A stretch of 35,933 nt of DNA, from NCBI RefSeq assembly GCF_009725985.1, contig NZ_RCNR01000049.1, forward strand, positions 1 to 35,933, read 5' to 3'. The DNA is from Zobellia amurskyensis (GTDB lineage: Bacteria > Bacteroidota > Bacteroidia > Flavobacteriales > Flavobacteriaceae). The translations under genes and the position numbers were made by a program. This document shows positions 8,745 through 35,933 of this stretch, piece by piece. How positions within the stretch are numbered: position 1 is the stretch's first letter; each line of letters starts with the position of its first letter. The notes beneath the pieces were generated by a model. That model was not told the origin of the DNA and did no database searches. It saw nothing but the letters and a program-made list of their open reading frames with translations.

Positions 8745-8844
8745 ACAAAAACGAGGTTATATTACTCTGCATCTTCCAAAACAATTTGTAGAACTTCATT
8801 ATCCATGATTTCGATAACCGAAGTTGATTTAACCTCGTTTTTGT
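8745..8844. repeat. 15-bp perfect inverted repeat across two convergent gene ends
   Basis: ACAAAAACGAGGTTA at 8745-8759 is repeated as its exact reverse complement at 8830-8844, with 70 bp between. The left arm lies after the symporter stop. The right arm lies in the coding sequence of the small lipoprotein (codons for NKNEV). The symporter transcript could therefore form a 15-bp stem with a 70-nt loop ending in CGUUUUUGU. It may be a 3'-end stabiliser or imperfect terminator, or a scar from replication template switching. Confidence 0.7.
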
Positions 8845-9178
8845 TTCCATCTTCATCGTAAGTGAACGATTTAAAAGAAACTTCTTCACCATCATTGAAT
8901 ACTGCCATTTGATAAATGGTACGAGGACCTTGTTCTAAAGTTGTTATGCTATAATTACTGAGACTTTGTCCATATTCCTTTTCTGCTCCAGTGCCATGTC
9001 TGAGTTTGAAGGTTACATAATCTGCAGAAAATCCTGCTGAATTAGCAAAAGATATTCCGGTGTCATTAGAGATTTTTGCTTCTCCACTTACTAGAGTGGG
9101 TTCTTTTTCATCTTTTGAACAGCTTGCCGTTATCACCAGAACAACACTGCAAAGTAGGTGTACAATGCGTTTTTTCAT
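8762..9178 (-). CDS. Small secreted lipoprotein of unknown function
   Basis: A 138-residue protein with a lipoprotein signal ending ITASC (lipidation at C20) followed by SKDEKEPT, a common start for Bacteroidota surface lipoproteins. The rest is predicted mostly beta with many acidic residues; I recognise no catalytic motif or family. It is transcribed alone, converging on the symporter gene. Its leader holds two CCCAAATC sites 20-42 nt before the start codon, one in a hairpin loop (see 9193-9220). Confidence 0.75.
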   Translation of the reverse strand: MKKRIVHLLCSVVLVITASCSKDEKEPTLVSGEAKISNDTGISFANSAGFSADYVTFKLRHGTGAEKEYGQSLSNYSITTLEQGPRTIYQMAVFNDGEEVSFKSFTYDEDGNKNEVKSTSVIEIMDNEVLQIVLEDAE

Positions 9179-33165: not shown

Positions 33166-35064
33166 ATGAGTGACGCGATTAAACATGAATGTGGTATTTC
33201 GGTAATACGGTTACTTAAACCGTTAGAGTATTACAAAGAGAAGTACGGTACGGCCTTTTACGGGGTAAATAAAATGTACCTAATGATGGAAAAGCAGCAC
33301 AATCGTGGTCAAGATGGTGCGGGCTTTGCGAGTATTAAGTTAGATACCGCTCCTGGTGAACGTTACATGAGCAGGGTACGGTCTATTGCGCAACAGCCTA
33401 TACAGGATATCTTTGCGCAGATCAATGATCGTATAAATACAACACTTCAAGAACACCCGGAGTATGCTGATGATGTAGCTGCTCAAAAGAGGAATATTCC
33501 TTACATAGGAGAAGTGCTTTTAGGGCATGTACGCTATGGTACTTTTGGTAAGAACAGTATTGAGAGTGTTCACCCCTTCCTAAGACAGAATAACTGGATG
33601 CACCGTAACATTATTGTTGCAGGTAACTTTAACATGACTAACGTTCACGAGTTGTTCGATAATTTAATCCAGATAGGGCAGCATCCAAAAGAAATGGCGG
33701 ATACGGTAACCGTAATGGAGAAAATAGGTCACTTTTTAGATGATGCTGTTGCTAAGCTATATAAGCAAATCAAAAAAGAAGGATATACAAAACAAGAAGC
33801 GTCACCCATAATTGCAGATCGTCTTAAAGTTCATAAAATATTAAGAAGAGCGGCCAAAAACTGGGATGGTGGTTATGCCATGGCAGGTCTTTTGGGGCAT
33901 GGAGATGCTTTTGTTCTTAGGGATCCGGCGGGTATTAGACCAACTTATTATTACCAAGATGATGAGATTGTAGTTGTGGCTTCTGAGCGCCCTGCTATAC
34001 AAACGGTGTTTAATGTGCCTTTTGAAGAGGTCAAAGAACTTGATCCTGGTCATGCTATCATAATCAAAAAGGATGGTACTTCTTCTATTACCCAAATATT
34101 GGAACCTACAGAGCGTAAGGCATGTTCGTTTGAACGTATCTATTTTTCTAGAGGGAGTGATAAGGAAATCTATCAAGAACGAAAGAAACTGGGAAGACTC
34201 CTTTTTCCGCAGATATTGAAATCTATTGATCACGATATAAAGAATACGGTCTTTTCGTATATACCCAATACTGCTGAAACCTCTTTCTTTGGAATGGTAA
34301 GAGAGGCGCAGAATTATCTAAATAAGAGAAAAGAGGAGCAGATACTTTCTATTGGATCAAAAATTACAAGTGAAGAGCTTCATGAAATTTTAGAGGTTCG
34401 TCCACGGATTGAGAAAGTGGCTATTAAAGATGCTAAGTTGCGCACCTTCATTACTCAAGATAGCAGTAGGGATGATCTTGTAGCTCACGTGTATGACATT
34501 TCCTATGGATCGGTAAAGAAAGGCGATAACCTGGTTATTATAGATGATAGTATAGTTAGGGGAACAACACTGAAGAAAAGTATACTTCGGATTTTAGACC
34601 GGTTGTCACCAAAGAAAATAATTGTAGTATCATCCGCGCCACAAATAAGGTATCCGGATTGTTACGGTATCGATATGGCCAAGTTAGAAGATTTTATCGC
34701 ATTCAAGGCGGCCTTGGCGTTACATGAGGAACGCTTTACTATGAACGTTGTAGATGATATTTATGATAAATGTCTAGAGCAGGTAAGTAGTAAGGATAAA
34801 GATGTAATTAACTACGTTAAAGAATTTTATGCACCTTTTACTCCTGAAGAAATATCCTTAAAAATAGGGGAGTTGCTTAGCCCGGAAGAGATTAAAGCTG
34901 AGGTAGAGATTATTTACCAGAGTGTAGAAGCACTACATGAAGCTTGTCCAAAGAATTTAGGAGATTGGTATTTTACCGGTGATTACCCTACCCCAGGAGG
35001 TAACCGAGTAGTAAATAAAGCCTTTATAAACTTTTACGAAGGCAAGAATGAACGCGCGTACTAA
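33166..35064 (+). CDS. purF: Amidophosphoribosyltransferase, long Bacteroidota form
   Basis: A 632-residue enzyme for the first step of purine synthesis: PRPP plus glutamine to phosphoribosylamine. The N-terminal glutaminase domain begins MSDAIKHECGI, so the nucleophile is C9 and an 8-residue propeptide must be removed, as in Bacillus PurF. NRGQDGAG and GHVRYGTFG are glutamine-site motifs. The PRPP loop is VIIDDSIVRGTT (about 457-468). It is about 120 residues longer than E. coli PurF, with an insertion around 95-115 and a helical C-terminal extension. It could be a second PurF paralogue. Two hairpins, the second a strong terminator, follow. Confidence 0.92.
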   Translation: MSDAIKHECGISVIRLLKPLEYYKEKYGTAFYGVNKMYLMMEKQHNRGQDGAGFASIKLDTAPGERYMSRVRSIAQQPIQDIFAQINDRINTTLQEHPEYADDVAAQKRNIPYIGEVLLGHVRYGTFGKNSIESVHPFLRQNNWMHRNIIVAGNFNMTNVHELFDNLIQIGQHPKEMADTVTVMEKIGHFLDDAVAKLYKQIKKEGYTKQEASPIIADRLKVHKILRRAAKNWDGGYAMAGLLGHGDAFVLRDPAGIRPTYYYQDDEIVVVASERPAIQTVFNVPFEEVKELDPGHAIIIKKDGTSSITQILEPTERKACSFERIYFSRGSDKEIYQERKKLGRLLFPQILKSIDHDIKNTVFSYIPNTAETSFFGMVREAQNYLNKRKEEQILSIGSKITSEELHEILEVRPRIEKVAIKDAKLRTFITQDSSRDDLVAHVYDISYGSVKKGDNLVIIDDSIVRGTTLKKSILRILDRLSPKKIIVVSSAPQIRYPDCYGIDMAKLEDFIAFKAALALHEERFTMNVVDDIYDKCLEQVSSKDKDVINYVKEFYAPFTPEEISLKIGELLSPEEIKAEVEIIYQSVEALHEACPKNLGDWYFTGDYPTPGGNRVVNKAFINFYEGKNERAY

Positions 35065-35070
35065 TTGACG

Positions 35071-35133
35071 TTATCGATGAAATGCATAGATAAACGTATT
35101 TCATCGATAATATACGCCATTTGGCGTTTTTTT
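35071..35133 (+). terminator. Tandem hairpins after purF, the second a strong terminator
   Basis: The first hairpin is a perfect 13-bp stem: TTATCGATGAAAT (35071-35083) with ATTTCATCGATAA (35098-35110), and it has a 14-nt loop without a T-run. The second, ACGCC-ATTT-GGCGT (35114-35127), is followed by TTTTTT and is a standard intrinsic terminator. Confidence 0.9.
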
Positions 35134-35170
35134 AGCCGCTTAGGCGGAGGTCAGATTACATTTGGTCTTG

Positions 35171-35245
35171 CCATAGCATAAGTAGGTTAAGTTCATGGTA
35201 AGATTTGGGGCAAAAAGGTGGAGATTTCTCCACCTTTTTATTTTT
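35171..35245 (+). ncRNA. Small RNA, copy 1
   Basis: About 75 nt. The -7 box is TACATTTG (35157-35164), with a T-run ending near 35133 in the -33 region. Six nt later the 39-nt core (35171-35209) begins CCATAGCATAAG and ends AGATTTGGG. CCAT (35171) can pair with ATGG (35195) around a 20-nt loop. The terminator stem is GGTGGAG/CTCCACC (35217-35223, 35228-35234) with a tetraloop, flanked by AAAAA and TTTTTATTTTT. The core contains no convincing ORF. Confidence 0.85.
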
Positions 35246-35404
35246 CACTACTTTTTCCCTTCTTGAAAATTTAAAATTCTTCTAAAAGCATACATTTTTA
35301 ACCGTGTTGGTATTTATAGTTTGTTCATAAACCCTTTAACCGATTTTTATACAGTTGGGCAAAGATGTTTTTATATAGATCAATGCCGTTGTACATTTGG
35401 AGGA

Positions 35405-35479
35405 CCATAGCATAAGTAGGTTAAGTTCATGGTAAGATTTGGGGAAAAGGGCGGAGTTTATCTCCGCCCTTTTTATTTT
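35405..35479 (+). ncRNA. Small RNA, copy 2
   Basis: About 75 nt. The -7 box is TACATTTG (35392-35399), 5 nt before the core (35405-35443), which is identical to copy 1. The terminator stem is GGGCGGAG/CTCCGCCC (35449-35456, 35462-35469), loop TTTAT, followed by TTTTTATTTT. The stem position that is U-A in copy 1 is C-G here. TTTGGAGGACC before the core is shared with copy 3. Confidence 0.87.
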
Positions 35480-35651
35480 CCATACTTTCTCGCTTAGTAG
35501 ACTTTTCAGAACACAGACTTCCGGTTTTCCAACTTTCATTTTCCAATAGGTTAAAGCATGTTATTTTGGTTGAAAAGGTATTTCAACTAGAGTTTTGAAC
35601 GTTTGTCCAAAACCTTTTTTTTAAGGCTGGTGTAGCACTACTTTTGGAGGA

Positions 35652-35725
35652 CCATAGCATAAGTAGGTTAAGTTCATGGTAAGATTTGGGGAAAAAAGGT
35701 GGAGCTATGCTCCGCCTTTTTTATT
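35652..35725 (+). ncRNA. Small RNA, copy 3
   Basis: About 74 nt. The -7 box is TACTTTTG (35639-35646), 5 nt before the core (35652-35690), identical to copies 1 and 2. The terminator stem is GGTGGAGC/GCTCCGCC (35698-35705, 35709-35716) with one U.G wobble, followed by TTTTTT. A T-run near 35613-35622 occupies the -33 region. Confidence 0.86.
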
Positions 35726-35847
35726 GCCAAAAACCTCGTGAATATGAGGCTTCAGGGCATGTTTTGACTTTTCTGTCAACAATTCAGTTGAAAAAAAACC
35801 GCAAATATTTCTTTTTTATTTCCCACAATACCAGTATTTTAGTATCG

Positions 35848-35924
35848 CCATAGCATAAGTAGGTTAAGTTTATGGTAAGATTTGGGACGAAAAGGGTGGA
35901 GACTTCTCCGCCCTTTTCATTTTT
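35848..35924 (+). ncRNA. Small RNA, copy 4
   Basis: About 77 nt. The -7 box is TATTTTAG (35835-35842), one mismatch, 5 nt before the core (35848-35886). The core has a single change, C to T at 35871, outside the CCAT/ATGG stem, and the base after GGG is A rather than G. The terminator stem is GGGTGGAG/CTCCGCCC (35894-35901, 35906-35913) with a U.G wobble, followed by TTTTCATTTTT. The copy is complete within the window. Confidence 0.82.
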
Positions 35925-35933
35925 AAACGACAC

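Follow-up and report, generated by a model that had tools for sequence, protein, structure and literature searches.

Putative tandem sibling small RNA genes conserved in Flavobacteriaceae, with candidate start-codon targets and candidate multi-site sponges

Introduction

To our knowledge, few base-pairing small RNAs (sRNAs) are understood in the Bacteroidota. The FopS/GibS family of Bacteroides (RF04319) comprises multi-copy sRNAs of about 65–70 nt, whose 5′ seed blocks start regions. Fourteen genes with susC targets are described, and the part of the report available to us presents none of them as a tandem array (PMC11697453). In Flavobacterium psychrophilum, the sRNA Rfp18 is encoded by one deletable gene and pairs with its targets through its third stem-loop; according to the available part of the report, deletion of the gene lowers two protease mRNAs (PMC9723704). 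Candidate sRNAs of Flavobacterium columnare have also been published, as far as the accessible part of the source describes them.

Sibling sRNAs are described outside this phylum. Qrr1–4 of Vibrio cholerae are near-identical sRNAs with a common pairing region, with which a separate sponge, QrrX, pairs; conserved promoter elements lie upstream of the sponge (PMC9732341). In Caulobacter, the four siblings SisA–D (alphaR8) have one sponge, CrfA, and a target site is located 5′ of the start codon (PMC12559287). OmrA and OmrB of Escherichia coli, as described in the same report, are tandem siblings controlled by a two-component regulator (PMC12559287). These three systems are compared on the parts of the reports that were available. 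Here, a tandem array of putative sibling sRNA genes from Zobellia amurskyensis is described.

Results

The analysed DNA, referred to as the window, is one entire contig of 35,933 bp within a 5.1-Mb genome. Four direct repeats with a unit length of about 75 nt span positions 35170–35922 of the plus strand (region 35135–35925). The 39-nt core CCATAGCATAAGTAGGTTAAGTTCATGGTAAGATTTGGG starts at 35171, 35405, 35652 and 35848, with start-to-start spacings of 234, 247 and 196 nt. It is the same in three copies, and the fourth carries one C-to-T change. In each unit, a −7 box of the TAnnTTTG type is followed by a purine where +1 is expected, the core and an intrinsic terminator, the hairpin of which begins 0–3 nt past the core. 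Copy 1 (35170–35244) has its −7 box at 35157–35164 (TACATTTG), the core at 35171–35210 and the terminator hairpin at 35212–35239, its +1 being derived from the −7 box. The respective elements of copy 2 (35404–35478) are at 35392–35399 (TACATTTG), 35405–35444 and 35445–35473, those of copy 3 (35651–35725) at 35639–35646 (TACTTTTG), 35652–35691 and about 35692–35722, and those of copy 4 (35847–35922) at 35835–35842 (TATTTTAG), 35848–35887 and 35889–35918. The transcription start is likely to be the purine directly before CC, 5 nt past the box and 6 nt in copy 1. No open reading frame (ORF) of at least 80 aa overlaps the array region. Thus the preliminary description of four near-identical repeats in DNA without genes, with cores placed 5–6 nt after a −7 box and running into a terminator, was accurate. 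Whole units fold better than their dinucleotide shuffles (z −2.99 to −4.37).

The left neighbour of the array is a conserved gene similar to purF, which encodes an amidophosphoribosyltransferase-like protein (33166–35064, plus strand). Its product contains glutamine amidotransferase domains and scores 134.9 bits with the purF model, the cut-off of which is 350. Further copies beyond the right edge had been considered possible. The contig stops 11 nt past copy 4, and since this copy belongs to the subtype that closes nearly every such array in relatives, the full copy number is probably four. The nine Zobellia genomes contain 4–6 copies each.

Flavobacteriaceae form a large family with marine and soil members. 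When the core was searched in flavobacterial genomes, as had been suggested, a 93-nt query matched 193 of the 199 sampled Flavobacteriaceae genomes at E ≤ 1 and 162 (counted by hand from the result table) at E ≤ 0.001. A covariance model, R1, was built from 54 copies. With the stricter filters used owing to sample size, it matched 32 of 246 genomes in a sample of the order and 26 of 296 in a sample of the phylum, all of them Flavobacteriaceae (32 of the 40 and 26 of the 30 family members, respectively); none of the 206 and 266 genomes outside the family matched. An exact 20-mer was found in at least 118 stretches of named genomes. The 80 matches listed belong to Flavobacteriaceae or to less precisely named Bacteroidota or Flavobacteriia bins and include Zobellia, Maribacter, Flavobacterium, Muricauda, Winogradskyella and Aquimarina; F. 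psychrophilum is absent among these 80. The 54 aligned copies come from 25 genomes and are invariant in 37 of 77 columns, which supports the view that each repeat is an sRNA gene equipped with its own promoter and terminator. The spacers have diverged, as stated earlier, and the terminators differ in sequence.

The usual site of the array is between the purF-like gene and a superoxide dismutase gene. In 93 loci, a purF-like left neighbour was present in 74 and a convergent Fe/Mn superoxide dismutase gene on the right in 68, several of the loci without one of these neighbours being cut by locus ends. Three subtypes are distinguished in one large clade. In subtype A, the first copy, the core is followed by GGGGC, and in subtype B, the middle copies, by GGGGA; subtype C, the last copy, has the core GTTTATGG and its own conserved promoter. 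The label A means just GGGGC after the core and has no positional meaning for the A-only arrays of other clades. In the window, copy 1 is of subtype A, copies 2 and 3 are of subtype B, and copy 4 is of subtype C. The A-Bn-C order is nearly fixed in this clade: among 165 locus strands, redundancy included, the orders ABC (24), ABBC (21), ABBBC (7) and ABBBBC (2) were found, with lone exceptions such as ABCC, ABA and AAB. It is thus mainly the number of middle copies that varies. A mobile element or selfish repeat with no regulatory role would account for tandem, near-identical copies. The conserved neighbours, the nearly fixed subtype order and the lack of any exact match in the IMG/VR viral contigs all argue against it. 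Moreover, the check for a repeat scattered at random over the genome returned just the four array copies with the covariance model at E ≤ 0.001, and this explanation can practically be set aside in favour of sRNA genes.

The unit folds into one 5′ hairpin followed by the terminator. The stem ACCAUA/UAUGGU presents a nearly invariant loop, AGUAGGUUAAG, and is followed by the tail GAUUUGGGG. Over 42 distinct core variants, the outer helix is paired in 100% of cells, with changes to G-U or U-G only, and the inner helix in 87%; sliding the partners by 1–3 columns gave 17–50%. Covariation is modest, with three pairs changed on both sides compared with 1.3 after shuffling, and 44 of 500 shuffles reached as high a value. 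The loop positions G16, U18, U19 and A20 and the tail positions U35, U36, G38 and G39 are invariant in all 42 variants, and most of their neighbours are nearly so. In Flavobacterium genomes (genus g127, termed so from core matches to named Flavobacterium loci) the loop is UUAGUAGG. The pairs between GGGG and the terminator proposed by RNAalifold in alignment A1 were rejected as an artefact of unequal terminators in an ungapped alignment; therefore, four pairs in model R1 are doubtful.

Two TTNRWC boxes near −70 and −50 were found upstream of the A and B copies. The pair is present in 192 of 310 distinct upstream regions, compared with a mean of 0.26 and a maximum of 4 in mononucleotide shuffles, and in one of 57 type C regions. 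The boxes are 7-mers placed 20 bp apart from start to start, with 13 bp between them. Beyond the letters fixed by the search they favour G, C, A or C, and T or G before TT, as judged around positions already set by the search pattern. Direct repeats separated by 11–13 bp upstream of a promoter are a feature of LytTR-type regulation. The boxes also resemble the AlgR consensus CCGTTCGTC, which itself is present in one locus (L061). Control of the A and B copies by a LytTR-type regulator acting through these repeats is proposed as probable. In the window, only copy 3 is preceded by both boxes (TTCAACT at 35582 and TTTGTCC at 35602; 35582–35608, plus strand, 20 bp apart). Copies 1 and 2 have one box each on the plus strand, TTCATCG at −71 (35100–35106) and TTTAACC at −70 (35335–35341), with off-pattern partners near −51 and −50, respectively. 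The subtype C promoter block (35811–35842, plus strand) has no box pair and is conserved across 56 type C copies.

A 13-bp inverted repeat just past the purF-like gene (35071–35083/35098–35110) holds the box in both orientations, and similar inverted repeats precede the first copy in some other loci. A genome-wide regulon defined by the strict double-box pattern was rejected: 13 matches were obtained in the Z. amurskyensis genome compared with 17 for the reversed pattern, without enrichment. Two of these 13 matches (G000:C11:4351 and G000:C47:22757) lie 0.2–0.3 kb upstream of where a susC profile match starts, which may be due to chance.

Candidate targets were searched among 683 start regions, drawn from about 16% of the Z. 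amurskyensis genome and from the window, with mechanically called ORFs. The tail complement CCCAAAT occurs 13 times, where 4.97 are expected (p 0.002, uncorrected for the 34 words examined), and ranks first of 140 letter permutations, the mean of which is 2.6. For all core 7-mers taken together, the count in these regions is not raised (189 vs 179.1). In two of the CCCAAAT genes, ACCTACTT, the complement of the loop, also follows downstream, as antiparallel pairing requires. In a third, the 138-aa lipoprotein-like gene of the window at 8765–9178 (minus strand), the gap between the sites is longer than in other targets; with CCCCAAATC at −28 from the ATG (site 9206) and ACCTACTT from codon 7 (site 9159), it is a weak candidate target.

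The bipartite complement CCCAAAU ... ACCUACUU, in the right antiparallel order, adjoins start codons, mostly of genes for exported proteins. The pattern CCCAAATN{5,35}CCTACTT is present in each of the nine Zobellia genomes, with 116 matches in total. After subtraction of the array's own antisense (41), 75 matches remain, compared with 18 for the reversed pattern. With gaps of 3–14, which exclude normal array copies, the 199 family genomes gave 168 matches vs 97 for the reversed pattern. Matches in orthologues are non-independent among these 168; one string recurs at least nine times, running antisense to a 505-aa ORF in the single locus that was read, and one match, in G195, is probably an array copy. 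For the 206 genomes from other families of the order, the counts were 45 vs 62 (Fisher p 2e-4 between the two sets), and the Z. amurskyensis genome gave no match. In 0.8 Mb of this genome, tail-then-loop order was found three times, loop-then-tail once and reversed letters never, all small numbers. A 0.8-Mb sample of one Flavobacterium-like genome yielded one CCTACTA match, no CCTACTT match and no clear targets.

In seven of 30 tool-chosen sites (L383–L412), the first ATG of an ORF no shorter than 100 aa follows 0–6 nt after the end of the site, with 0.1 expected; L453–L472, hand-picked for recurring strings, were left out of this count. Sixteen of the 30 lie inside ORFs or antisense to them; L409, which is among these 16, also adjoins an ATG. 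In the Zobellia loci, the start of such an ORF lies within or just past the site in 7 of 26. Predicted duplexes with candidate targets and sponges have energies of −22.7 to −35.6 kcal/mol, partly by construction as the sites were picked for their seeds; the mean for susC starts is −15.65. SusC start regions, guessed as targets from Bacteroides FopS, were discarded: 30 of 57 matches were tested and no complementarity beyond shuffles was seen (mean z −0.25 to 0.1). Long perfect antisense partners were discarded as well. All 36 CCCCAAATCTTAC matches in 40 genomes fall at array coordinates, and TTAACCTACTTA gave scattered non-array matches without evident conservation.

Several target groups span genera, with the seeds kept and the spacer changing; the reading frame changes once. 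"Lipoprotein" is read here from the N-terminus, and orthology within a group from leaders and N-termini, not from trees. A 545-aa lipoprotein with one LVIVD-repeat match carries the string in six of nine Zobellia genomes and has likely orthologues in four other genera; across the five genera, TTAGAACCCAAATCTAA and CCTACTT..ATGAAAA are preserved in its leaders, with a variable spacer. In the gene of a 107-aa T9SS-sorted protein (8 of 9 Zobellia genomes) the site lies across the ATG. A 578–602-aa lipoprotein, whose PelZ match scores far below the cut-off, is found in five of nine Zobellia genomes and a 327–339-aa DUF4138/TraN-like protein in six of nine; two members of each were read. A 435–437-aa 7TMR-DISM protein with a borderline LuxR-type match (two scanned) and a 119–124-aa lipoprotein with the motif P-E-N-(N/D)-DP (no Pfam match in two scanned) each occur in three genera. 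A 138–145-aa lipoprotein of four genera has AACCTACTTAA just past the ATG in two reading frames, its genes beginning with ATG AAA ACC TAC TTA, ATG AAA AAC CTA CTT or ATG AAA ACC AAC CTA CTT. Two more candidates were met once each: at L400, a protein of 396 aa that looks exported, and at L397, one of 147 aa with no clear export signal. The box pair is located upstream of 5 of 22 target loci tested, namely all four of the two-frame lipoprotein, one of two of the PelZ-like protein and none of the remaining 16. These bipartite complementary sites thus lend outline support to the earlier proposal that such sRNAs act on several mRNAs. Pairing in the 5′ leader may also activate the mRNAs or act on their stability, as reported for Rfp18, another flavobacterial sRNA, where the protease mRNAs are lower in the deletion strain (PMC9723704, available part). 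The loop complement is at most a few nucleotides away from the start codon or falls within the first codons, a position for which ribosome occlusion would be the simplest outcome, and we consider activation or stability control unlikely. Repression at the start site is the reading followed below.

Complements of loop and tail also recur as 2–6 modules in intergenic stretches, several of them ended by a terminator. The Zobellia sites without a start codon are of this kind: intergenic, with several modules followed by an intrinsic terminator. In one such module, CCCCAAATC-GAATCTT-GAACTTAACC, the core is present as its reverse complement except for a mismatched centre of 7 nt. Two multi-module units stand in tandem in L310 and L355. 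Similar-looking arrangements were found at a second Zobellia locus (L354, L368, L372), in G050 with three units about 466 bp apart and in G152 with two units 7 kb apart. Module counts are 2–6 in eight stretches, compared with means of 0.13–0.4 and a maximum of 3 for shuffled cores; the 45-nt windows were just 30 nt apart, so counts may be high, and the scan of about 490 nt covers two units in L310 and L355. A search for three-module clusters in 0.8 Mb of the Z. amurskyensis genome returned L310 only and nothing with three shuffled cores, and none were found in the Flavobacterium-like 0.8-Mb sample.

In seven loci (L310, L355, L372, L368, L462, L463, L472) TTCACAACA repeats were found, as two exact copies 21 bp apart in five and singly in the other two. 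They mostly adjoin a TAATTTAG-like box. The TTCACAACA/TAATTTAG-type promoters recall the type C sRNA promoter (CYCACAATACCAGTAATTTAG). Terminators were read in the Zobellia loci, L462, L463 and L471, and the promoter-like elements are conserved; L471, in G120, has just one site, together with a promoter-like box and a terminator. Seven other genomes of seven genera have in common a different multi-module stretch, S1 (L388, L453–L458). Modules were counted in three of these loci, all seven are without a clear G+C-rich terminator, and four have the box pair upstream. Overall, the pair precedes 4 of 13 candidate sponge loci. In two genomes, sRNA and module differ together (sRNA GUAGAUUUGGGG with module CCCAAATCTAC in G005; sRNA GUAAGAUUUGGGG with module CCCAAATCTTAC in G120), and these two cases are suggestive of covariation. 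The multi-module stretches are regarded as candidate sponges for the sRNAs.

It might be argued that the RNAs mainly titrate an RNA-binding protein, like the CsrB/RsmZ decoys, and that the mRNA sites are secondary or coincidental. Multi-copy arrays do occur among protein decoys, and the whole core, stem sequence included, is more nearly invariant than a short antisense seed needs to be. Against this stand the enrichment and correct order of complementary sites at start codons, and a decoy does not predict separate stretches that contain the complement several times. We regard a protein decoy as quite improbable and retain base pairing with mRNAs.

Discussion

Two features expected of sibling base-pairing sRNAs are seen in the sequences: several near-identical units, each with a promoter and a terminator, and conserved complementary sites at the start codons of trans mRNAs. 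The units, their conservation, the stem, the bipartite start-codon sites, the multi-module stretches and the box repeats can be read directly in the DNA. We propose that the array encodes trans-acting sibling sRNAs of about 75 nt. The 5′ stem would display a loop with AGUAGGUU; a single-stranded tail, GAUUUGGGG, would come next, and then the terminator. Together, loop and tail would pair with CCCAAAU, a spacer and ACCUACUU just upstream of or across start codons and block ribosome access to the mRNAs, mostly those of exported proteins such as lipoproteins, a T9SS-sorted protein and a 7TM sensor. Intergenic RNAs with several complementary modules would sequester the sRNAs as sponges, the sRNA dose would be set by copy number, and a LytTR-type regulator would probably drive the A and B copies through the −70/−50 repeats. 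We hold this reading, derived from sequence comparison, to be likely as a whole. A broader proposal seems to us evenly balanced between true and false. It assumes a family-wide Flavobacteriaceae circuit, in which dose-variable tandem siblings clamp the start codons of surface-protein mRNAs with two seeds at once and are opposed by multi-module, partly tandem sponges. The sRNAs, some of the sponges and some targets would stand under the same LytTR-type boxes, and the sponges would have grown by repetition of the core antisense, mismatched at its centre like the bulged sponges made by design.

One conserved locus, cross-genus candidate targets and candidate dedicated sponges are all readable from sequence. 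Pairing, dosage and sponging can therefore be tested directly in marine bacteria. If true, natural sponges with several sites and central mismatches would be an unusual architecture.

A search of the window against Rfam 15 gave no match at gathering score, and the earlier remark that the RNA may be new holds against this database. Membership in an Rfam family was rejected; that in Flavo-1, which had been suggested, is not supported, Flavo-1 being absent from the lists at E ≤ 10. A literature search on flavobacterial and Bacteroidota sRNAs in one open library returned no description that we recognised as this RNA in the accessible texts.

FopS shares the phylum, the multi-copy nature, the size and the start-blocking 5′ seed with the Zobellia units, and the core shares with it the 9-mer UUCAUGGUA followed by AGAUUU; 7 of 500 shuffled cores also share some 9-mer with one FopS sequence. 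Membership in RF04319 was rejected at 19.0 bits, the gathering score being 56. The FopS anatomy, with the 5′ end GUGUUUUUCAU and no 5′ hairpin in the aligned model, differs from that of the Zobellia units, which have such a hairpin, and so do the 14 genes and susC targets. In the phylum sample of 296 genomes RF04319 matched three, all outside Flavobacteriaceae, and none of the 30 family genomes. FopS is thus kept as an analogy and not as a homologue. In another family of the order, a FopS-like RNA (L230 in G216) scored 43.9 bits (E 6e-5), below gathering, with the 5′ end GTGTTTTTCAT, which suggests that FopS relatives reach the Flavobacteriales.

Rfp18 resembles the Zobellia RNAs as a flavobacterial sRNA conserved beyond its species and tied to secreted proteins. 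It is set apart, by its description in the available part of the report alone, by the third pairing stem-loop, whereas the Zobellia unit is a 5′ hairpin with a terminator (PMC9723704). OmrA and OmrB share the tandem arrangement and may also share control by a regulator, and differ in having two copies and belonging to another phylum; they too were compared by description only (PMC12559287). SisA–D are similar in being four siblings, in having a sponge, to which the candidate sponges may correspond, and in the target site 5′ of the start codon. They differ, according to the available part of the report, in belonging to the Alphaproteobacteria, in their 10-mer core, in their use of Hfq and in siblings without a conserved promoter motif (PMC12559287). 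In circuit design, the proposed system resembles Qrr1–4 and QrrX, with near-identical siblings, a common pairing region bound by a separate sponge and conserved promoter elements upstream of that sponge. In the available part of its report, this system is Gammaproteobacterial and Hfq-based, with dispersed genes and unrelated sequence (PMC9732341). The Zobellia genes, in contrast, stand in tandem at one locus, and the candidate sponges are multi-module and sometimes arranged in tandem units. The best reading of the sequences is a circuit of sibling sRNAs, targets and sponges in the Bacteroidota that would work like Qrr/QrrX and is unrelated to it in sequence.
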